A stretch of DNA of 64,000 bases from Micromonospora sp. CCTCC AA 2012012 (lineage in GTDB: Bacteria; Actinomycetota; Actinomycetes; Mycobacteriales; Micromonosporaceae). Of the stretch, positions 39,684 to 60,333 are shown piece by piece. The stretch lies in the NCBI RefSeq assembly GCF_040499845.1, contig NZ_CP159342.1:4340001-4404000 (forward strand), in the 5' to 3' direction. Position numbers and translations under genes: made by a program. The notes under the pieces were generated by a model that had not been told where the DNA came from, searched no databases, and saw nothing but the letters and a program-made list of their open reading frames with translations. Numbering within the stretch: the first letter of the stretch is position 1; the number at the start of each line of letters is the position of its first letter.

Positions 39684-40667
39684 TCAGCCGATCATTTTCT
39701 CCAGCTCCGCGACCGGGAAGCCGCCCGCCGGGATCCGCTCCCGCACCGCCCGCCGGACGGCGCCCTGCACCGCGGCGTTCACCGGCGTCGGTACGCCGTG
39801 CAGCCGGCCGAGCAGCACGATCTCCCCGTTGAGGTGGTCGGCCTCGGCGGAGCCGGCGCCCCGGGCCAGGCTCTGCCAGGTGGAGCCGCCGGCCCGCTCC
39901 TCACCGTCGACCGGTCGGTGCCGCACCCGGTCGCCGCGTGCGGCCGCCTCCTCCTCGGGCGAGGTGTGGGCGATTCCGGCGGCGGCGAGCGCCGCGACAC
40001 CCTCGGCCCGGACCCGCTCGGCGAGGCCGTCGGGGATGTCCCGCCCGAGCAGCGCCTGGAGGCCGTTGCCGAGGTTGCTCAGCAGCTTGCCGTACTTCCA
40101 TCGCAGCACGTCGTCGTGGACCGGCGCGACGAACCCGGCCGAGGTCAGGTCGGCGGCGACCGCCCGGGCGGTGTCGTCCGATCCGGACGGGTAGCGGCCG
40201 AGGTGCAGCATCCCCGAGTGCGGGTGGCCGTTGGCGACCACCACGCCGGGCTCCAGGTGGGTGGCGGGCAGCCAGACGCAGACCGGGTGCACCCGGGCGA
40301 AGAACCGCAGCGCCGTCCGCTCGTTGGCCACCCCGTTCTGCGCGGTGAACAGCGGCAGCCGCTCGCCGGCCGTGCCGCCGCCCGCCACCGGGGCGTCCAC
40401 CCAGGCGGCCAGCGCGGCGGCGGTGTCCTGGGACTTGACGGTGAGTACCAGCGCGGTGTCGGCCGCCAGCGGCCGGTCGTCGGGCCCGGCCGTGGCGGGC
40501 AGCCGGAGGGTCGCCGTTCCGTCGGGCGTACGCAGGGTCAGTCCCCGGTCCCGCAGGGCATTCAGGTGTGCGCCCCGGGCGACCAGGGTCACCTCGTGGC
40601 CGGCCTGCGCGAGCCGTCCGCCGATGGTGCCGCCGACCGCGCCCGCGCCGATGATGACGTATCGCAT
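39684..40667 (-). CDS. Ketopantoate reductase family protein
   Basis: This 327-residue NADPH-dependent reductase has RYVIIGAGAVGGTIGGRLAQAG (Rossmann loop) and LTVKSQDTAAAL, with KYGKLLSNLGNGLQALLGRD holding the catalytic Lys. Members reduce 2-dehydropantoate to pantoate in coenzyme A synthesis, but several relatives have other keto substrates, so the symbol panE is not assigned. ATG 40667 begins the Rossmann loop and follows GGAGGAG. It is a lone gene on this strand, 61 bp after the start-side of the M50 protein gene's stop. Confidence 0.88.
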   Translation of the reverse strand: MRYVIIGAGAVGGTIGGRLAQAGHEVTLVARGAHLNALRDRGLTLRTPDGTATLRLPATAGPDDRPLAADTALVLTVKSQDTAAALAAWVDAPVAGGGTAGERLPLFTAQNGVANERTALRFFARVHPVCVWLPATHLEPGVVVANGHPHSGMLHLGRYPSGSDDTARAVAADLTSAGFVAPVHDDVLRWKYGKLLSNLGNGLQALLGRDIPDGLAERVRAEGVAALAAAGIAHTSPEEEAAARGDRVRHRPVDGEERAGGSTWQSLARGAGSAEADHLNGEIVLLGRLHGVPTPVNAAVQGAVRRAVRERIPAGGFPVAELEKMIG

Positions 40668-40728
40668 CCTGCCGATTCTCCTCCCGCACCGCTGCCTGTC
40701 CACGGTCCGGTGGCCCGAGCGGGTGGCG

Positions 40729-41472
40729 TCAGAGCGTGAGGCCGGCGTCGGTGAGGAGCTGGCCGGCGAGCAGCAGCCCGCCGACGCCCAGTGCGGCGAG
40801 GCTGACCAGGGCGAAGACGGTCACCCAGAACAGCGCCGGGAACGGGGTGAGCCGGGCGAGCTGGTCCGCGTCGGACTCCGGCATCCGACCCCGGCTGCGC
40901 TGCCGTTGCAGCTCCACCACCGGGCGTACGCCGCCGAGGAGCAGGAACCAGACCGAGGTCCAGGCGAACGCGGCCTGCACCTGCGGCGACGCGTACCAGG
41001 AGACGGCCAGCACGACGCCGCCGGTGACCAGCAGCGACAGCACCCCGAACACGTTGCGGATCATGACCAGCATGGCCAGCAGCAGCGCCACGGCCACCCA
41101 GAGCAGCAGGGTGATCCGGTTGCCGGCGAGCAGCCAGGCACCGGCGAGGCCGACCAGCGACGGGGCGACGTACCCGGCCAGCAGGGTGAGGATCATCCCC
41201 GGTCCGGTGGGACGGCCGGCGGAGAGCGTGAGCCCGGAGGTGTCCGAGTGCAGCCGGATACCGCGCAGTTTCCGGCCGGTCAGCAGGGCCGTCAGGGCGT
41301 GCCCGCCCTCGTGCGCGATGGTGACGGCGTTCCGGGCGATCCGCCACGGTGTCCGGATCGCCACGACCAGCAACGCCACGACAGCGGTGAGCAGCACCAG
41401 CAGCGGCGGCGGGTCGGGCTGCGCGCTGAGCAGCGTGTCCCAGATGGTGGTGAGGCCGTCGATCAGGGGCAT
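40729..41472 (-). CDS. M50-type membrane metallopeptidase
   Basis: This 247-residue integral membrane protein has the zinc-binding motif HEGGHALTALLTGRKL in the second membrane region (AHEGGH, i.e. HExxH), with two more His and an Asp later not clearly visible. Four to six hydrophobic segments follow, including LLLWVAVALLLAMLVMI and SVWFLLLGGVRPVVEL. It is similar to the actinobacterial M50 family (a small relative of site-2 protease). Its targets are unknown. ATG 41472 stands 8 nt from TAGGCT on its strand. The short gap to 41573 contains no gene. Confidence 0.85.
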   Translation of the reverse strand: MPLIDGLTTIWDTLLSAQPDPPPLLVLLTAVVALLVVAIRTPWRIARNAVTIAHEGGHALTALLTGRKLRGIRLHSDTSGLTLSAGRPTGPGMILTLLAGYVAPSLVGLAGAWLLAGNRITLLLWVAVALLLAMLVMIRNVFGVLSLLVTGGVVLAVSWYASPQVQAAFAWTSVWFLLLGGVRPVVELQRQRSRGRMPESDADQLARLTPFPALFWVTVFALVSLAALGVGGLLLAGQLLTDAGLTL

Positions 41473-43025: not shown

Positions 43026-45020
43026 TCAGTTCACCCGGTCCGGCTTGAAGCCCTTGGTGATGGCCTCCCAGTTGGGCAGGTTGGCGGCCCACTGCGCGTC
43101 GGCCACCTCCCACCGCAGCGCGTAGCCCCGGTTGCTGGCGGTGGCCACCCCGCGATTCCGCACGTGTGTCTTGACCCCGTTCGAGGTCTGGTACCAGTCC
43201 CAGTCCGCGCAGGTGCGGTAGTAGTCGCAGGGCTTGATCCCGATGAGCTGGTAGTTGTTCACGTAGTCACGGCGGTTGGGCTCCTGCTCCCGCCAGTCCG
43301 CGTAGGCGTCCTTCTTCGGGCTGTCGGTCCACTGCATGTAGAGCCGTCGCCCGCCGGCAGGGTCCGTGAAGGTCACCGAGTTCCTGCCGTTGCTGCTGCG
43401 CCAGCCGTCCGGCAGCGGGACCTGGAAGCCGTTCGGACCCTTGTAGTAGCGCCAACCGGTGGGCAGCGTGAAGCCAGCGGCCGACGGCGTCGCCGAGGGG
43501 CTCGCCGACGGGGTCGGGCTGGCGGCGGCGTTGGTGGGCGGCGGTGCCGCGGGCTGCGAGGTGGGCCCGGCGGCCGACGACTGAGTCGGGGCGGCGGTGG
43601 TGGCGCCACCGGCCTGCTGGCCGCCGTCGCCCTTCGAGTCGCCGCCACCCCGGTTCAACAACGGCACGATCACCACGACGCCGAGCAGCAGCAGCGCGAC
43701 CAGCACGCCGATCAGCACGTTGCGTCGCTTGTGGTCCGGCTTCGTGCCGGGCACCACGACCGCCCGGCCCGTCGACTGCGCCGGGCTGACCGGGGCCGGC
43801 ATGACCGACGTCGGATTCGTCGGCCGGGCCGGCGGCGGCGCGTCGACCGAGGTGTCGTCGGCGGCGACCGGCGAGCCGTCGAGTCGGGTGTCGTCGAGGG
43901 CGGCCTCCGGCACGTCGACCGTGGCCGACGTGGGAAGTCCGAGCTTGGCGGTGGGGCCCGCGTCCGCGCCGGCCGGCACCTTGGCGGTGGCGTCGTCGGC
44001 GGCCATGGCACCGGCCGCGGCGGCACCGGCGACAGCGGCGGAGGCACTCACCTCGGGCTGGCGCGGCGCCGGGGCGACGGACTGCTGGTCAGAGCGGTCG
44101 TCGGCCGGCCGCGGCGCCGGCACCAGCGGCGGGCGCGGCTCGCGCGGACCGTTCGGCCCCGGCCGGCGTACGCCGTCCAGCAGCGAGATGCTCTTGGCCC
44201 GCTTGCCGCCGGCCTTACGCAGCAGGCGTTCCGCCACGTCGGCGGTGATCCGCTCGGCCGGGTCCTTGCGGAGCAGGCCGTTGAGGACCGGCTTGAGCGG
44301 CCCGGCGTTCTTCGGCGGCGGCATCGGCTCGGTGGCCAGCGCCGCCAGGGTGGCGATCGCCGACGGCCGGGCGTACGGCGACTTGCCCTCCACCGCCGCG
44401 TAGAGGGTCGCGCCGAGCGACCAGAGGTCGGCCTCCGGCCCGGCCGTGCCGTCCTTGGCCCGCTCGGGGGCGATGTACGCCGGGGAGCCCAGCACCATGC
44501 CGGTCCGGGTCACGTTCGGGTCGCCGGGAATGGTCGCCAGACCGAAATCGGTCAGCACCACCCGACCGTCGTCGCCGAGCAGCACGTTGCCCGGCTTGAC
44601 GTCACGGTGCATCACGCCGGCCTTGTGGGCGGCCTTCAGCGCACCCAGCACACCGAGCCCGATCTCCACCGCCTTGGCGGGCGACACCGGCCCGTCCTCG
44701 GCGAGGGTGTCCTGCAACGACTTTGACGGGACGTACTCCATGACGATCCACGGGTCGCCGTCGGTACGCAGCACGTCGAAGATGCGGACCACGTTGATGT
44801 TGTTCAGCCGGGCGATGGCCCGCGCCTCGCGCAGCGAGCGTTCCCGCATCTCGCGGCGCTCCTCCGGGGTGAGGCTGGGCGGCGGGACGAGCTCCTTGAT
44901 GGCGACGTCCCGGTGCAGCACCTCGTCGCGCGCCTTCCACACCCGGCCCATGCCGCCCTGGCCGAGCGGCGAAATGAGCCGGTATCGGTCAGCGACGAGT
45001 TGGGGAAGCGCGTTCGACAT
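43026..45020 (-). CDS. Transmembrane Ser/Thr protein kinase
   Basis: This 664-residue Hanks-type kinase is membrane-anchored. The N-terminal kinase domain has the glycine loop LGQGGMGRVWKARD, Lys42 in VAIKEL, HRDVKPGN with Asp140, and DFG at 158-160. A Pro/Ala-rich cytosolic linker with several Thr and Ser follows. One membrane segment (434-455) leads to a Ser/Pro linker and an external domain (about 515-664) with three Cys, looking like a sensor for an unknown signal. ATG 45020 has TACCGT (45028-45033) 7 nt upstream, opposite to the epsilon subunit gene. Confidence 0.93.
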   Translation of the reverse strand: MSNALPQLVADRYRLISPLGQGGMGRVWKARDEVLHRDVAIKELVPPPSLTPEERREMRERSLREARAIARLNNINVVRIFDVLRTDGDPWIVMEYVPSKSLQDTLAEDGPVSPAKAVEIGLGVLGALKAAHKAGVMHRDVKPGNVLLGDDGRVVLTDFGLATIPGDPNVTRTGMVLGSPAYIAPERAKDGTAGPEADLWSLGATLYAAVEGKSPYARPSAIATLAALATEPMPPPKNAGPLKPVLNGLLRKDPAERITADVAERLLRKAGGKRAKSISLLDGVRRPGPNGPREPRPPLVPAPRPADDRSDQQSVAPAPRQPEVSASAAVAGAAAAGAMAADDATAKVPAGADAGPTAKLGLPTSATVDVPEAALDDTRLDGSPVAADDTSVDAPPPARPTNPTSVMPAPVSPAQSTGRAVVVPGTKPDHKRRNVLIGVLVALLLLGVVVIVPLLNRGGGDSKGDGGQQAGGATTAAPTQSSAAGPTSQPAAPPPTNAAASPTPSASPSATPSAAGFTLPTGWRYYKGPNGFQVPLPDGWRSSNGRNSVTFTDPAGGRRLYMQWTDSPKKDAYADWREQEPNRRDYVNNYQLIGIKPCDYYRTCADWDWYQTSNGVKTHVRNRGVATASNRGYALRWEVADAQWAANLPNWEAITKGFKPDRVN

Positions 45021-45425: not shown

Positions 45426-45875
45426 ATGATCCCCGAGGAGGACCGCCCAGCTTCCTGGCTGCGCGACTACGCCGGCATCGAGGCCGACATCCGCCAGATG
45501 CGCGAGTTCGCCGACCGGCTCCAGGCCGAGGTCGAACGGAACTACACGCCGCACCTGTCCTACATCGCGGACGACATGAAGGCCCCGGTCCCCAACCCCG
45601 CCGACGCGTTCGTGGAGCTGGTCCAGTTCCTCCACGCGCACAACGAGACCCAGCAGGCCACCGTCAACATGGTGTGGGACGTCGCCCGGGCCACCGGCTT
45701 CCTGGCCGGCGCGGCCGGGAAGATCGCCAGCAGCCACGCCCACACCGACGCGTTCGTCTCCGCCCGCGTCACCGACGTCGAGAACGCCCTCGCCCAGGCC
45801 CACGGCACCTCCCGGCCCCTGCCCGCGCTCCCCGATCCGACAGCACCCGAGGAGGCCCGGGTGATCCTGCCGTGA
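45426..45875 (+). CDS. Mycosin-operon protein 1 (unknown, helical)
   Basis: This 149-residue protein is predominantly helical (DYAGIEADIRQMREFADRL, and AFVELVQFLHAHNETQQATV), resembling WXG100/ESX-secreted-type proteins in size and style but lacking an obvious WxG motif. It ends in a Pro/Ala-rich tail. Its stop overlaps the start of the next gene in GTGA, so translation is coupled. It is the first of a three-gene unit with a mycosin, hence a possible ESX-like substrate or chaperone. No core secretion genes are near. Its composition is like the rest of the window. Confidence 0.75.
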   Translation: MIPEEDRPASWLRDYAGIEADIRQMREFADRLQAEVERNYTPHLSYIADDMKAPVPNPADAFVELVQFLHAHNETQQATVNMVWDVARATGFLAGAAGKIASSHAHTDAFVSARVTDVENALAQAHGTSRPLPALPDPTAPEEARVILP

Positions 45876-47275
45876 TCAAACGCGACGGCGGCCGCACCTC
45901 CGGCCTCACCGACTGGCAGCTCATGGACGTGCTCAGCATGTGGGCCTGCCTCCAGGACCAGGAGACCACCGGCCACTGGAAGCAGGTCGCCGGCTGGCGC
46001 AAGGTCTGCGACCTCGCCCAGACCCACCTCGGCCGCCTCCGCGAATACCGTCGCGGGCTCGCCGAGGCGTGGCCCCCGGAGACGAACGCCGCCGCGCGGA
46101 CGTACATCGCCGAGTTGGACCAGCTCGTCGACAAGGTGCAACGCACCCACGACGCCGCCGCTGCGAACCACGACGCGCTGTCGGCCGCCGCCCGCGCCCT
46201 CGGCAGCGCCCGCGCCAGCCTGGAGCCGATCTACCAGGAGTACGCCACCAAGCTCCAGCAGAAGCAGGCGTACGAGGCTACGGTCGCCGATCCGAAGGCG
46301 CTGGCGGGCAGCCGGCTGCCGGACAAGCCGGTGACGACGGCGGACCTGGAGCGGCTCAACGTGCAGGCGCGGAGCGTGATGACCGGCCTCAGCGGAGAAC
46401 TCCAACAAGCCCAAGCAATGCTCCAGAAGCCGCCTCCGGCAGGGAGGCTAGGACCGAGGGTTGATGAAAAGTCGGTCGACCCCTACAAAAACACTGGCGG
46501 CTCGGCACCGATTATCCCGCCAGTAGTTGCAGTGCCAATCAGCTCCTCGCCCGCAACACCGAACCGTCCCACAACGGCAGATAAAGCCCGCCTCCCCAGC
46601 ATCACTGGCCCGAGCGTCGGGCCGGTTCTAGGAAGCGGTCCGGTCCTCGGCGGAGCAGGCACGGGAATAGCTCATCCACCAGCCTCCCCCGGCCTGTCCA
46701 GCCCATCCCCCACTCCCGCTTCACCAGGGAATTCGATGGGGCTCACGCCGGGCCTGCCAGTGGCTCCTAGCGCTGGCAGAGGAAGCCCATTGGATGGATT
46801 TCGCCGGAGCGGATCGGGTCCGACAGGCCGCTCAATCTCTAGCCCAGAGGGCCCACACCATACGCCTCCTCGATCAATGGCTCCGGGCGGCATAATCGGC
46901 AGTTCCCCTGGCGCGGGAATCGGGCAGGGATTTAATTCACCGCGTCGAGTTAACCCTATCGGAGGAGTGATTGGCGGCGGAGGCGCGGGAACCGCACCTA
47001 CAGGCTCCGCCGGGTCCCGTCCTGGAAGCGGTCGCATGCCACAGTTCGGCACCCAGGGTACCGCCCCGCTTGGAGGCGCACCGGGCATGCATGGGCCATC
47101 CGGGATGAGTGGTGCGCGTGGCCGGCTTGGGCAGACCGAGGAGAAGGATGGCCAGCAGCGACGCTGGGACCCTGACAATCCTTGGGAAGTCGACTCCGGG
47201 GTAGACCCCATCGTTCGCCCTCCTGAGGACGAAGGGCCCATAAACCCCGGTCCTGCCATCGGCTTTGATCGGTGA
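45872..47275 (+). CDS. Mycosin-operon protein 2 with Pro/Gly-rich tail
   Basis: This 467-residue protein has a helical N-terminal part (about 1-190, LTDWQLMDVLSMWACLQDQE, YIAELDQLVDKVQRTHDAAA) of the kind seen in WXG/PPE-like secreted proteins. A low-complexity tail of about 270 residues follows, dominated by Gly, Pro and Ser (GSGPVLGGAGTG, GAPGMHGPSGMSGARG), ending in a Trp/Asp-rich RWDPDNPWEVDSGVDPI. From about codon 190 (46440) the DNA is clearly less GC-rich, with codons such as ATA and AAT rare elsewhere here. The two genes around it overlap by 4 nt. Function unknown. Confidence 0.75.
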   Translation: MIKRDGGRTSGLTDWQLMDVLSMWACLQDQETTGHWKQVAGWRKVCDLAQTHLGRLREYRRGLAEAWPPETNAAARTYIAELDQLVDKVQRTHDAAAANHDALSAAARALGSARASLEPIYQEYATKLQQKQAYEATVADPKALAGSRLPDKPVTTADLERLNVQARSVMTGLSGELQQAQAMLQKPPPAGRLGPRVDEKSVDPYKNTGGSAPIIPPVVAVPISSSPATPNRPTTADKARLPSITGPSVGPVLGSGPVLGGAGTGIAHPPASPGLSSPSPTPASPGNSMGLTPGLPVAPSAGRGSPLDGFRRSGSGPTGRSISSPEGPHHTPPRSMAPGGIIGSSPGAGIGQGFNSPRRVNPIGGVIGGGGAGTAPTGSAGSRPGSGRMPQFGTQGTAPLGGAPGMHGPSGMSGARGRLGQTEEKDGQQRRWDPDNPWEVDSGVDPIVRPPEDEGPINPGPAIGFDR

Positions 47276-48438
47276 AGTGGTCGGGCTTGTGGCTCCGCTT
47301 CGTCATCTACGCCACGTCAACTGCCCTAGCGTCCAGCCTTAACATATCGCCTGTGACCGCCCCCGCGTTTGCGGCCATGCTGAACAATCCCTCCAACCGG
47401 ATCCGAGCCGATCAGTGGCACCTTCAGTATTTGAAGACGAGCGAAGCGCAGGCCATTAGTCAAGGCGAGGGAGTCACGGTCGCAGTGCCAGACACTGGAG
47501 TTGCTCCACATCCGGACCTGCAGCGTAACCTACTTGCGGGTGTGGACATCATTCCGGGAGGGAGCGGCGACGGCCGGCAAGATAACAACAGCCACGGCAC
47601 TGGGATGGCCGGGCTTATTGCCGCTCACGGCCAAGGCAACGGCAGAGGAGCACTCGGCATTGCCCCTAAAGCGAAGATTTTACCCCTGTTCGACACTCCT
47701 GCGGATGGACTTGGAGACCCAGACGACCTCGCGAAAAGCATAGAAATTGCAATATCCCGTAGGGTTGAAGTAATTAGCATCTCAGCGGCTAGTTCACCCA
47801 CTCCCCGCCTTCAACACGCAATACGTGAGGCCATCGGCGCCAATATTGTTGTTGTGGCAGCGGTCGGGAATGCGCCCCGCGAGACTGAAGCCGCTTACCC
47901 TGCCTCCGAGAAGGGGGTGATTGCAGTTGGTGGCATTGATCGCTCGGGCAAGCGGGCGAGAGCTTCCGTCACCGACCCACAGGTCGACGTAGTGGCGCCG
48001 GCCGTAGACATTTACAGCACGGGCCTCAGGGGAAGCTACCGCAGGAGCACGGGCACCTCGGATGCCACCGCCATCGTTGCTGGGGCGGCTGCGCTGATCC
48101 GGTCGAAGTATCCCGACCTGCCTGCTCAGGAGGTGGCGCACCGCTTGACCGCCACCGCCATCGACAAGGGCCCACCCGGCCGGGACGACGAGTACGGCTA
48201 CGGCGTCATCGACCTTGTCGCTGCGCTGACGGCAGACGTACCCCCGCTGGGTTTTGAGTCGTCGGCGGTGACCGCGCCGGCCACCCCGACCGTCGCGGAG
48301 CCGGCGTCGGACGGCGACGACGACGGCGCGACGGCGCGTGGGCTGGCGACGTTGGGGGTGCTGGTGGCGGCCGGGGGCGGCTACCTGCTGTGGCGTCGTC
48401 GTCGTGCCGGCGACCCGCCGCCGCGGATCAGCCGGTAG
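47272..48438 (+). CDS. Mycosin-type S8 membrane-anchored serine protease
   Basis: This 388-residue subtilisin has an N-terminal signal sequence, catalytic Asp74 (VAVPDTGVAPHPDL), His108 (NNSHGTGMAGL) and Ser263 (TGTSDATAIVAGAAAL), and a C-terminal membrane helix (GLATLGVLVAAGGGYLLW) followed by a basic tail, the layout of type VII secretion mycosins. GTSDAT replaces the usual GTSFAA. Codon 137 (47680-47682) is TTA, rare in such genomes and a possible bldA-type control. The composition is foreign-looking up to about 48090 and normal afterwards. Confidence 0.88.
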   Translation: MKWSGLWLRFVIYATSTALASSLNISPVTAPAFAAMLNNPSNRIRADQWHLQYLKTSEAQAISQGEGVTVAVPDTGVAPHPDLQRNLLAGVDIIPGGSGDGRQDNNSHGTGMAGLIAAHGQGNGRGALGIAPKAKILPLFDTPADGLGDPDDLAKSIEIAISRRVEVISISAASSPTPRLQHAIREAIGANIVVVAAVGNAPRETEAAYPASEKGVIAVGGIDRSGKRARASVTDPQVDVVAPAVDIYSTGLRGSYRRSTGTSDATAIVAGAAALIRSKYPDLPAQEVAHRLTATAIDKGPPGRDDEYGYGVIDLVAALTADVPPLGFESSAVTAPATPTVAEPASDGDDDGATARGLATLGVLVAAGGGYLLWRRRRAGDPPPRISR

Positions 48439-55552: not shown

Positions 55553-55649
55553 TCCTGCGCTTCGTACCCGCCGGGCTCGGTCCACACCGGCCCGGCGGGG
55601 CCCGGGCCTGGCCCGGCGTACCAGTCTGAGCCGGCGTGCCCGACCTGGC

Positions 55650-55723
55650 CCGGCATGCCGGTGTGGGCTGGCGTGCCCGTCCTGGTCCGGCGTGCCGGTG
55701 TGGGCTGGCGTGCCCGGTCTGGC
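55650..55723. repeat. Two 37-bp direct repeats
   Basis: Adjacent copies at 55650-55686 and 55687-55723 differ at three or four positions; both contain GCCGGTGTGGGCTGGCGTGC. A partial copy precedes them. They lie in the 550-bp gap between the alpha-subunit gene and guaB1, along with the ATATGCC element and another tandem repeat. No function is apparent. Confidence 0.65.
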
Positions 55724-55803
55724 CCTCCGCCCTGGCTGCGGCGGCACCCCCGACCGCCGCCCTCCGCCCGCCGTGTCGTGGCGAACCGGCACCTGCCTGT
55801 TGA

Positions 55804-57544
<1,741 letters not shown>

Positions 57545-57551
57545 CCCCGGA

Positions 57552-57581
57552 CGGGGCCCCCGCTTCACGGCGAGGGCCCCG
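57552..57581. terminator. Hairpin between convergent genes
   Basis: CGGGGCCC (57552-57559) and GGGCCCCG (57574-57581) form a stem around a 14-nt loop. It follows the guaB1 stop and lies just beyond the stop of the convergent TetR gene. Confidence 0.65.
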
Positions 57582-57585
57582 ACGG

Positions 57586-58134
57586 TCAGGGGAACAACCG
57601 GCCGACGACCGTACGGGCGGCCGTCTCCGGATCGGGGCCGACCCGGTCCGGCAGGGCGCCGGCGAGCCAGAGCGTGGCGAAGCCGTGCACGATCGACCAG
57701 GCCGCGAGCGCGTCGACGTCGGGGCCCCGACCGGTGTGCCGGGCCACCCCGAGGCGCAGCAGCTCCCCGGCCCGCTCGCGGGCCGCCGTCAGCCCCGGAT
57801 CGTCCGCCCGGTGCAGGTCGGGGCGGAACATCACCTCGAAGTGCGCCCGGTGTCGGACGGCGAAGCACACGTACGCGACCCCGCTCTCCCGGAAGTCGTC
57901 GCCGGCCCGCCGCAGCGCCTCGGCCAGCAGCTCGAAGCCCTGCGTGGCGAGGGCGGTGAGCAGCCCCGCCTTGTCCCCGAAGTGGTGCGCGGGGGCCGCG
58001 TGCGAGACGCCGGCGCGACGGGCCAGGTCGCGCAGGCTCAGCGCGGCCGGCCCGGACTCGGCCATCGCCTCCGCCGCCGCCGCGAGCAGGGCGCGACGTA
58101 GGTCTCCGTGGTGGTACGACTGCGACGAGGTCAT
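57586..58134 (-). CDS. TetR-family repressor
   Basis: This 182-residue regulator has the N-terminal helix-turn-helix LSLRDLARRAGVSHAAPAHHFGDKAGLLTA (in two parts: LSLRDLARRAGVSHAAPAHH) and a TetR_C ligand domain (VCFAVRHRAHFEVMFRPDLH). It probably represses itself and the divergent DoxX gene through two CTTGTC palindromes. ATG 58134 has TAGAGT (58142-58147, minus strand) 7 nt upstream, directly next to one operator. The ligand is unknown. Confidence 0.92.
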   Translation of the reverse strand: MTSSQSYHHGDLRRALLAAAAEAMAESGPAALSLRDLARRAGVSHAAPAHHFGDKAGLLTALATQGFELLAEALRRAGDDFRESGVAYVCFAVRHRAHFEVMFRPDLHRADDPGLTAARERAGELLRLGVARHTGRGPDVDALAAWSIVHGFATLWLAGALPDRVGPDPETAARTVVGRLFP

Positions 58135-58148
58135 GCCCGCAACTCTAA

Positions 58149-58201
58149 CTTGTCATTGACAAGATGACGCCCACCGGGGCAATCTTGTCGGCGACAAGAT
58201 T
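58149..58201. promoter_or_regulatory. Two TetR operators between tetR and doxX
   Basis: CTTGTCATTGACAAG (58149-58163) and AATCTTGTCGGCGACAAGATT (58181-58201) are perfect palindromes with the common half-site CTTGTC and a 3-bp centre, spaced 32 bp centre-to-centre or about three helical turns. The first adjoins the TetR -10 and the second lies 20 bp before the DoxX start. Confidence 0.85.
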
Positions 58202-58221
58202 GCCCTTCGGAGGGATGACGC

Positions 58222-58665
58222 ATGGCACCCCTGATCGCCCTTCTCGCCGGCACCGCCCTGGCCCGGATCGCCGGCCTGCTCGGCGTCGACGCCCTCGACG
58301 GATGGCACCCCGCCCTGCGGATCGGCCTGGCGTCGATGTTCGTGCTGACCGGCCTGGCCCACTTCCGGTCCCGGCGCCGGGACCTGATCGCCATGGTCCC
58401 GCCCGCCCTGCCCCGGCCGGACCTGCTGGTCACCCTCACCGGCGTGCTGGAACTCGGCGGTGCGCTCGCCCTGCTGGCGCCGGCCACGGCACGGTGGGCG
58501 GCAGCCGGCCTGGCGCTGCTCATGCTGGCGATGTTCCCGGCCAACGTCTCGGCCGCACGACGCCGGCTGACCCTCGCCGGCCGGCCGGTGACCCCGTTGG
58601 GCGTCCGGACGGTGCTCCAGATCGTCTTCGTGGCCGCCGCGGTCGCGGTCGCTCTCGGCGGCTGA
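58222..58665 (+). CDS. DoxX-family membrane protein
   Basis: This 147-residue protein has four hydrophobic segments and DoxX-type features: LRIGLASMFVLTGLAHFRSR at the start of the second, LLVTLTGVLELGGALALLAP in the third, and LQIVFVAAAVAVALGG at the end. Members are linked to thiol or redox stress; function is loosely known. ATG 58222 follows GGAGGG. It is divergent from the TetR gene and most likely under its control. Confidence 0.88.
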   Translation: MAPLIALLAGTALARIAGLLGVDALDGWHPALRIGLASMFVLTGLAHFRSRRRDLIAMVPPALPRPDLLVTLTGVLELGGALALLAPATARWAAAGLALLMLAMFPANVSAARRRLTLAGRPVTPLGVRTVLQIVFVAAAVAVALGG

Positions 58666-58672
58666 TCCACGG

Positions 58673-58705
58673 GGAGAGCCCCGGCCACTCCGGCCGGGGC
58701 TCTCC
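58673..58705. terminator. GC hairpin after doxX
   Basis: GGAGAGCCCCGGCC and GGCCGGGGCTCTCC form a perfect 14-bp stem around a 5-nt loop. It lies 8 nt after the DoxX stop and before the stop of the convergent exporter gene at 58711. Confidence 0.9.
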
Positions 58706-58710
58706 TCCTG

Positions 58711-60333
58711 TCAGACCTGGGCCGGTTCGGCGTCGGCCGGTGGCGCGACGGTGGCTTCGGGGCGTACCCGGGGCAGGCGCAGGCAGGCGATCAGGCCGAG
58801 CAGCAGGAACCCGGCGGCGGAGAAGGCCGCGTACCGGGTGGCGTCGGAGAAGGCGACCTTCGCCGCGTCGGCGATCGGCGCGGTACGCGGGTCCGCGGCC
58901 AGTCCGGTGATCGCCGCGCCGGCGCTCTCCTTCACCGCGGTCACCAACTGCTCGCGCTGGGCGGGAGCCACCCCGGGCTGGTCGGCGAGGCGGTCGGTGA
59001 GGATGCCGCCGAGGCTGGCGAAGAGCACGGTGCCGAGCACCGCGATGCCGAGCGCGGAGCCGACCTGACGGGCGGTGCTCTGCAGGCCGGAGCCCTGGCC
59101 GCTGCGCTGCACCGGCACCTCGGAGAGGGAGACGCCGGTGAGCTGCGCGGTGGCCAGGCCGACGCCCACGCCGTACGCGAAGAGGAAGCCCACCGGGGCC
59201 CACCAGGCGGTGTCGGGCGCGACGACGAAGCCGAGGCCGGCCACGCCGACCAGCTCGGCGGCGACGCCGAGCTGGACCACCCGGGCCGGTCCCCAGCGCT
59301 GGGTGAGCGGCGCGCCGAGCCCGCTGGCCAGGAAGCTACCGACGGCCAGCGGCAGCAGCGCCAGGCCGGTACGGAAGGCGCTGTAGCCGAGCACGTTCTG
59401 GAACCACAGCGGCAGGGCGAAGAGCAGGCCGAACTCGCCGAGGCTGACGATCGCGGCGGCCAGGATGCCGTTGCGGAAGGAGCCGATGCCGAAGAGCGAC
59501 ACGTCGAGCAGGGCGGGGCGGCCGGCCCGGTTGCGACGCAGCTGCTGGGCGAGGAAGACGCCGAGGGCGGCGAGGCCGAGCAGACCGGCGACCGGCACCG
59601 GGGAGATCGCGGCGGTCCAGTCGATCCCGAAGAGGCTGAACGGCTTCTCCCGCTGCCACCAGCCGTAGGTGCGCCCCTCGATGAGGGCGAAGACGACGCC
59701 GGTCATGCCGACCACGGAGAGCAGCGCGCCGAGCAGGTCGACCCCGCGTTCGGCCCGGTCGTCCCGGGACTCGGCGACCAGCAGGAGGGTGGCGGCGACG
59801 ACGGCGATCCCGACCGGGATGTTGATGCCGAACGCCCAGCGCCACGAGTACGTGGTGGTGAGCCAGCCGCCGAGCAGCGGGCCGAGGGCGGCGGCCCCGC
59901 CGATGGTGGAGCCCCAGATGGCGAAGGCGATGCCCTTCTCCCGGCCGGTGAAGTTGGCGTTGAGCAGGGAGAGCGAGGTGGGCAGCATCATCGCGCCGCC
60001 GATGCCCTGGAGCACCCGGGAGGCGATCAGCGTCTCGCCGGAGCCGGCGAGCGCCGCCAGCACGCTGGCCAGCACGAAGACGGTCACCCCGGCGACGAAC
60101 ATCCGCCGGCGTCCGGACCGGTCGGCGAAGCGCCCGGCGACCAGCAGCAACGCCGCGAAGACCAGGGTGTACGCCTCCTGCACCCACTGCGCGTCGGTGG
60201 AGGTGATCTTCAGGTCGCGGATGATCTGCGGTACGGCGACGTTCACGATCGTGGCGTCCACGATGATCATCGCCACGCCGAGGCTGATGGCGAGCAGCCC
60301 CCACCAGCGTCCGCGTCCGTCGCTGCGCATCAC
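58711..60333 (-). CDS. DHA2-type (EmrB/QacA) multidrug MFS exporter
   Basis: This 540-residue protein has 14 predicted membrane segments. It shows the DHA2 marks: VAMIIVDATIVNVAVPQIIR in helix 1, WVQEAYTLVFAALLLVAGRF and DRSGRRRMFVAGV (MFS motif A), and RVLQGIGGAMMLPTSLSLL with helix 4-5 motif. It probably expels drugs or dyes by proton antiport. It is divergent from a MarR gene with a TAGCTAGA palindrome between them. The start is GTG 60333, or ATG 60330, after GAGGAGG. Confidence 0.95.
   Translation of the reverse strand: MMRSDGRGRWWGLLAISLGVAMIIVDATIVNVAVPQIIRDLKITSTDAQWVQEAYTLVFAALLLVAGRFADRSGRRRMFVAGVTVFVLASVLAALAGSGETLIASRVLQGIGGAMMLPTSLSLLNANFTGREKGIAFAIWGSTIGGAAALGPLLGGWLTTTYSWRWAFGINIPVGIAVVAATLLLVAESRDDRAERGVDLLGALLSVVGMTGVVFALIEGRTYGWWQREKPFSLFGIDWTAAISPVPVAGLLGLAALGVFLAQQLRRNRAGRPALLDVSLFGIGSFRNGILAAAIVSLGEFGLLFALPLWFQNVLGYSAFRTGLALLPLAVGSFLASGLGAPLTQRWGPARVVQLGVAAELVGVAGLGFVVAPDTAWWAPVGFLFAYGVGVGLATAQLTGVSLSEVPVQRSGQGSGLQSTARQVGSALGIAVLGTVLFASLGGILTDRLADQPGVAPAQREQLVTAVKESAGAAITGLAADPRTAPIADAAKVAFSDATRYAAFSAAGFLLLGLIACLRLPRVRPEATVAPPADAEPAQV

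Follow-up and report, generated by a model that had tools for sequence, protein, structure and literature searches.

What kind of locus keeps its two ends nearly constant and carries between them a middle that differs from strain to strain? The question is raised by a three-gene operon of Micromonospora sp. CCTCC AA 2012012, whose genome is a single 6.73-Mb contig; positions 4340001 to 4404000 of it, a stretch of 64,000 nucleotides, are what we call the window. The operon consists of three open reading frames (ORFs) on the forward strand, at 45426-45875 (gene 1, 149 amino acids), 45872-47275 (gene 2, 467 amino acids), and 47272-48438 (gene 3, 388 amino acids), and their coordinates confirm the two 4-nucleotide GTGA overlaps by which an initial annotation, made from the sequence alone, had linked them. 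We find that the rear of gene 2 and the front of gene 3 form one variable block (46436-48064 on the forward strand, with a 3′ edge that ranges over 47890-48080), which is exchanged between alleles. As to what such a block is for, the reading we favor, and to which we give about even weight, is that the operon encodes a PE/PPE-like pair and a mycosin, and that tail and protease form an exchangeable specificity block on which selection favors recognition or rare alleles.

Relatives of the operon were examined at 154 loci. Two gave no match, 16 (five of them from other genera) did not have three plausible intact genes, and 32 were duplicates; the 104 that remain are the basis for the locus counts given here. 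Over their 5356 pairs, the median nucleotide identity is 0.76 at the 5′ end, 0.50 in the tail of gene 2, 0.36 in the signal region of gene 3, 0.58 in the protease core, and 0.73 at the 3′ end. At four-fold degenerate sites the medians become, in the same order, 0.61, 0.29, 0.25, 0.29, and 0.44, and the identity expected by chance at such sites in the block, where codon usage is near-flat, is 0.26 (62 loci). That is, the synonymous sites of the block are saturated. The signal region of gene 3 together with its N-terminal extension (47272-47406) is the most variable part, with a median amino acid identity of 0.20.

The block has sharp edges. There are 69 pairs of loci (not independent of one another) with 5′ ends at least 94% identical, and 61 of them differ in both tail and core, seven share both, and one shares the tail only. 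In the 61 differing pairs, the 5′ edge falls at codon 184-193 of gene 2 (median 189, position 46436), and the 3′ edge at codon 207-270 of gene 3 (median 265, about 47890-48080), at or before the catalytic serine. These measurements agree with the edges at 46440 and 48090, inside genes 2 and 3, that the initial annotation had proposed. The same sharp loss and recovery of identity at the block is found in 16 pairs with longer flanks. As an example, the relative G050 is about 93% identical over the window, with long matches at 90-94%; of the 1-kb bins, all but 47001-48000 (0.647) have an aligned identity of 0.846-0.985, and in 150-bp steps the middle falls to 0.43-0.66 and then recovers.

The ends and the middle of the operon also disagree on which loci are related. 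The 5′ end of L081 is 97% identical to that of L041 and 95% identical to that of L049; in the middle the two figures are 55% and 86%. We compared trees of 28 rows, in which the clades submitted to the approximately unbiased (AU) test were chosen after the identities had been seen. L041 and L081 are a clade in the ends (98/98) that the middle rejects (AU p = 1.6e-46), L041 and L042 are a clade in the middle (99/98) that the ends reject (AU p = 4.5e-106), and so are L049, L065, and L081 (AU p = 8e-8). The end tree did not reject L061 with L070, L082 with L140, or L020 with L025 (p 0.18-0.23), and L049 with L081 was borderline (p 0.05). Among 18 pairs whose protein records bear the same species name, which we selected by hand using a list of 120 names and the locus titles, 16 have gene 2 fronts 89-100% identical and tails 47-58% identical, and two share their tails (0.80 and 0.91).

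By single linkage at a nucleotide identity of 0.62, the 104 loci fall into 55 allele classes, and pairs with the same allele are 79-91% identical in the block. A divergent middle, conserved ends, and trees in conflict are all observed, and they lend good support to an exchange in which old allele classes move between ends that stay conserved. The idea that a variable middle had been exchanged between conserved ends was already in the initial annotation, and the identity profiles of the relatives, the close pairs, and the tree conflict bear it out; the comparison in related strains that it called for returned a sharply divergent middle and conserved ends; and its polymorphic module of a probable substrate and a protease gains support from the allele classes, the edges, and the close pairs. 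In the strain's own genome the block has no second copy that could serve as a silent cassette, and the gene 2 profile has a single match. Pieces of the block are matched in 136 of 159 other genomes of the genus; the matches listed are at 63-83% identity, with no near copy among them that could be the donor allele.

Does the low GC of the middle, then, mark it as foreign? Over 46440-48089 the GC content is 0.629; 1650-bp windows across the 64 kb have a mean of 0.725 (standard deviation 0.024), and the 15 of them with the lowest GC all start between 46101 and 46801. At third codon positions the GC content (GC3) is 0.96 in gene 1, 0.93 in the front of gene 2, 0.59 in its rear, 0.63 in the front of gene 3, and 0.87 at its end. 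Both measures reproduce the GC-poor middle (46440-48090) between normal ends that had been noticed by inspection. The word "foreign" attached to it does not survive the comparison with relatives. In all 104 loci GC3 drops from the front to the rear of gene 2 (by 0.11-0.43), and in all 104 it rises at the end of gene 3 (by 0.09-0.37), the means being 0.92, 0.91, 0.59, 0.58, and 0.80 in the order above; in 22 loci from ten other genera of the family, in which the three genes were matched, GC3 drops by about 0.10 to 0.33 past the front of gene 2. Moreover, synonymous saturation would have erased any donor composition, so that the low GC3 is the block's own state.

We infer that this state is best explained by missing recombination between unlike alleles. 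Recombination would be linked to the upkeep of GC by way of GC-biased repair or weak codon selection, and allele classes too different to recombine with each other would lose that upkeep of GC-rich codons, which would leave GC3 near 0.6. At the 3′ end GC3 and synonymous identity take intermediate values, as expected if the low-recombination effect fades there. The block would thus be a natural test of how GC-rich codons are kept up in GC-rich genomes, with GC3 going from 0.91 to 0.58 where the alleles diverge. L057/L133, left out of the 104 because its gene 3 ORF is abnormal (it runs on to 610 amino acids, and the assembly is fragmented), has a weaker drop: GC3 is 0.64-0.85 in the rear of gene 2, and gene 3 begins with 0.68-0.92.

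The block is under purifying selection, the protease core more strongly than the tail: in ten same-allele pairs the ratio of nonsynonymous to synonymous divergence (dN/dS) is 0.25 in the tail, 0.47 in the signal region, and 0.11 in the core. In the 61 different-allele pairs, the median dS is 0.13 in gene 1 plus the front of gene 2 and 0.29 in the 3′ end; in the tail it is 2.4 (computable in 43 of the 61 pairs), and in the core 2.3 (computable in 23).

Tail and protease core are co-inherited more than the tail and the protease's constant end. Allowing for the 5′ end, tail and core distances have a partial correlation of 0.19-0.23, which none of 300 permutations reaches, versus −0.13 to −0.12 for the tail and the constant end of the same protease. 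A functional matching of tail and protease is no more than plausible, since the correlation between segment matrices mostly decays with distance, with no matching beyond linkage, and L169/L170 carries a mixed allele. Variation is high in the protease's S2-S4 loop, at a mean of 2.3 bits versus 1.3 for non-contact residues. The substrate-contact residues as a set, on a provisional list of contacts, are not significantly more variable (p = 0.50).

What proteins are these? The conserved 5′ end of the locus starts with gene 1, whose AlphaFold2 model (mean predicted local distance difference test score, pLDDT, of 71) is a PE-like hairpin with helices at 17-50 and 63-103. Its fold match to PE25 is weak and non-significant, the best PE match having an E-value of 1.8 and a template modeling score of 0.52 by target; a Pfam search of the window protein for PE and WXG100 gave no match, and a sequence search of the PDB gave one chance match only (E 0.19). 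The hairpin is followed by a YxxxD motif, whose aspartate is found in all 104 loci and whose tyrosine in 102 of them; the helix-turn-helix with a YxxxD/E signature after it is thereby present in 102. The motif tyrosine is replaced by histidine (residue 104, window 45735-45737) only in the window and in L002, the locus of G050.

Gene 2 is modeled with confidence over residues 13-184 (45908-46423), a conserved helical region whose six top matches in a fold search are all PPE proteins, and we assign it the PPE helical-bundle fold. By sequence it has no relative in the PDB and, for the window protein, no Pfam family up to an E-value of 1; the Pfam PPE profile is absent among the best 25 of 28 families for 42 relatives. 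After about residue 190 the model is disordered; the tail, rich in Pro, Gly, and Ser (residues 188-467, 46433-47272), mostly has a pLDDT below 50. Since the PPE-like fold ends at about 184-190 and the 5′ edge lies at codon 184-193, exchange begins at the end of the fold. Two islands of the tail are kept across alleles, NPxGGVIGGG...AGSRPG and WDPDxPW...PGPAIG.

Gene 3 is a mycosin-like subtilase. It matches Peptidase_S8 (PF00082) with 160 bits (9.6e-47), and the T7SS_mycosin family TIGR03921 with 270.8 bits, just below the curated cut-off of 278.75, over profile positions 2-333 of 353. Residues D74, H108, N200, and S263 map onto subtilisin residues, and the Asp, His, Asn, and Ser are retained in all 104 loci. 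The codons for Asp74 (47491-47493, aligned to subtilisin D32) and His108 (47593-47595, aligned to H64) lie within the block, and that for Ser263 (48058-48060, aligned to S221) at its 3′ edge. The conserved end that follows (48064-48438) holds a putative hydrophobic C-terminal membrane anchor and a basic tail; this anchor and a putative N-terminal signal peptide were read by eye from the translation.

The operon occurs through Micromonospora and much of Micromonosporaceae. Gene 2 is matched in 100 of 101 genomes of the genus (a few matches are weak or fragmentary), in 83 of 121 genomes and 31 of 44 genera across the family, and in four of 296 genomes across the class, namely three Micromonospora and one weak partial match; the closest named orthologues are from Micromonospora. 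In L171-L174 (genomes G084, G043, G062, and G015), Micromonospora genomes of 5.2-5.9 Mb, matches to the operon are weak or partial only.

Is there a type VII secretion system nearby? As the initial annotation had stated for EccB and EccC, a profile search of the genome finds none in the window, where none of its 11 FtsK/SpoIIIE and two EccB matches falls (EccD was not searched for). The genome has EccC-type matches at 3.47 and 5.61 Mb, and EccB at 1.24 and 3.48 Mb. EccB was found in 21 of 22 genomes tried, the exception being G084, whose operon is fragmentary; because it is also present in G015, G016, G043, and G062, where the gene 2 match is weak or missing, EccB does not track the operon. 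There are also triads linked to ESX systems in Micromonospora (L236-L238) that share the operon's gene order: downstream of eccC, L237 has a relative of gene 1, then a PPE-like gene and a mycosin, and in L236 and L238 the triad was recognized by eye and similarity. The gene 1 relatives match the gene 1 profile at 4e-19 to 8e-19. With the gene 2 profile, the match of the PPE-like gene is at 2e-12 in L237 and weak in L236; that of L238 is not among the gene 2 profile matches listed, though it is 83% identical to L237's. GC3 is higher in the triads than in the operon, and the two pairs compared have an evenly diverging mycosin and lack a block with sharp edges. The mycosins L237:13564-14841 and L238:15076-16368 are 68% identical, with eccC at 93%, and have no GC drop.

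Polymorphism this strong within and across species usually marks recognition, signaling, or evasion. We infer export, cleavage, and a role in recognition, as follows. Genes 1 and 2 would be a PE/PPE-like pair that leaves the cell through a type VII system with its genes at another place in the genome, and gene 3 a membrane-anchored mycosin-like protease that may act outside the cell to trim gene 2's disordered tail. This tail and the core of the protease would act as a single exchangeable allele block flanked by constant ends, the gene 2 export domain upstream and the gene 3 catalytic-serine segment and membrane anchor downstream, and recombination in those ends would carry blocks from one strain or species to another. 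Old allele classes could persist in large numbers since rare or matching alleles are favored, as at recognition or pherotype loci, at which negative frequency dependence has been discussed (PMC6461992). A more specific form, which we put forward tentatively, is a bacterial system for pherotype or for telling self from non-self whose construction is new: the PPE-like protein exported by type VII secretion would carry a tail specific to the allele, no mycosin core but the one inherited with that tail would process it, dozens of long-lived alleles would be kept family-wide by rare-allele advantage, and the loss of GC-rich codons would be a side effect of not recombining.

The chief rival of this specificity-block reading is evasion of antagonists, a real possibility that we judge less probable. 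Phages, predators, or bacteriocins would target the exported tail, rare tails would escape, and the protease core would hitch-hike. The 55 allele classes, a disordered tail, a block with no receptor, and purifying selection that is stronger on the core than on the tail are all as expected; but the synonymous sites of the core are as saturated as those of the tail, the S2-S4 loop is among the most variable stretches of the core, and pure hitch-hiking demands near-zero recombination within the block. An unlikely alternative is that gene 2 encodes a polymorphic toxin, whose variable C-terminal domain type VII secretion would export and the mycosin would release. Toxins linked to such systems do have a constant export domain, a variable C-terminus, and sometimes a mycosin-like protease in the neighborhood (PMC3482391), but the tail has no confident fold, the window protein has no Pfam family, the same islands are kept across alleles, and no immunity gene is present in the block.

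Two further alternatives concern the origin of the block. Local hypermutation within each lineage, which we find slightly more improbable still than a toxin, could produce synonymous saturation and near-flat codon usage, and in the ten same-allele pairs the block has a dS about three- to fourfold higher than the 5′ end. It does not account for blocks common to less related strains and absent in nearer ones (L041 with L042 in the middle, L041 with L081 in the ends), nor for same-allele pairs that remain 79-91% identical in the block. A single recent transfer of AT-richer foreign DNA into this strain was suggested by the window's sharp-edged GC drop, and it is refuted by such a drop at the same place in every one of the genus loci and in ten other genera; we give it next to no credence.

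Among the closest known systems are the mycobacterial PE/PPE pairs and EspB with the mycosin MycP1. The operon differs from them in that gene 2 is without a Pfam match, the window is without an EccB- or EccC-type match, and the tail is exchanged together with the protease core in one allele block. Bacillus comQXPA and, comparably, agr of Staphylococcus also combine a polymorphic secreted factor with its processing enzyme, and those loci contain a receptor. The operon's block has none; it contains only the rear of gene 2 and the front of gene 3, a disordered tail and a protease core. Among B. subtilis isolates with gyrA about 99% identical, comQ clusters are only 65-70% identical in nucleotides (PMC4408185). 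Among the literature matches listed, we found no account, by title or start of abstract, of this locus or of a tail-protease block that swaps. A 2016 paper (PMC5082899) gives a single known substrate for the mycosin family, and alleles of a substrate of type VII kind with its mycosin could show what orphan mycosins do.

Other mycosins and relatives of these genes occur in the genus and in the same genome. In M. lupini, one type VII cluster has two mycP genes (PMC4182475). Near 3.497 Mb of the strain's own genome (L239:9588-12837), a distant gene 1 relative (E 4e-8) is followed by a gene of 691 amino acids, with eccB about 17 kb away. Near 4.938 Mb (L180:2874-4448) there is a second orphan mycosin (320 bits) with normal GC3, which adjoins a gene of 97 amino acids that looks WXG100-like by eye.

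In the flanks of the operon, the C-terminal part of a neighboring Ser/Thr kinase (window 43026-43626) diverges faster than most of the flank, with medians of 0.79-0.82 over the 16 pairs. We considered this kinase as a matched receptor and rejected it: its divergence does not resemble that of the block, nor does that of another flank bin, which is just as low (0.75). Window segments 39723-40702, 55553-56049, and 57545-58714 lack a long match in the syntenic region of G050, and most of bins such as 40001-41000 and 58001-59000 does not align to it.
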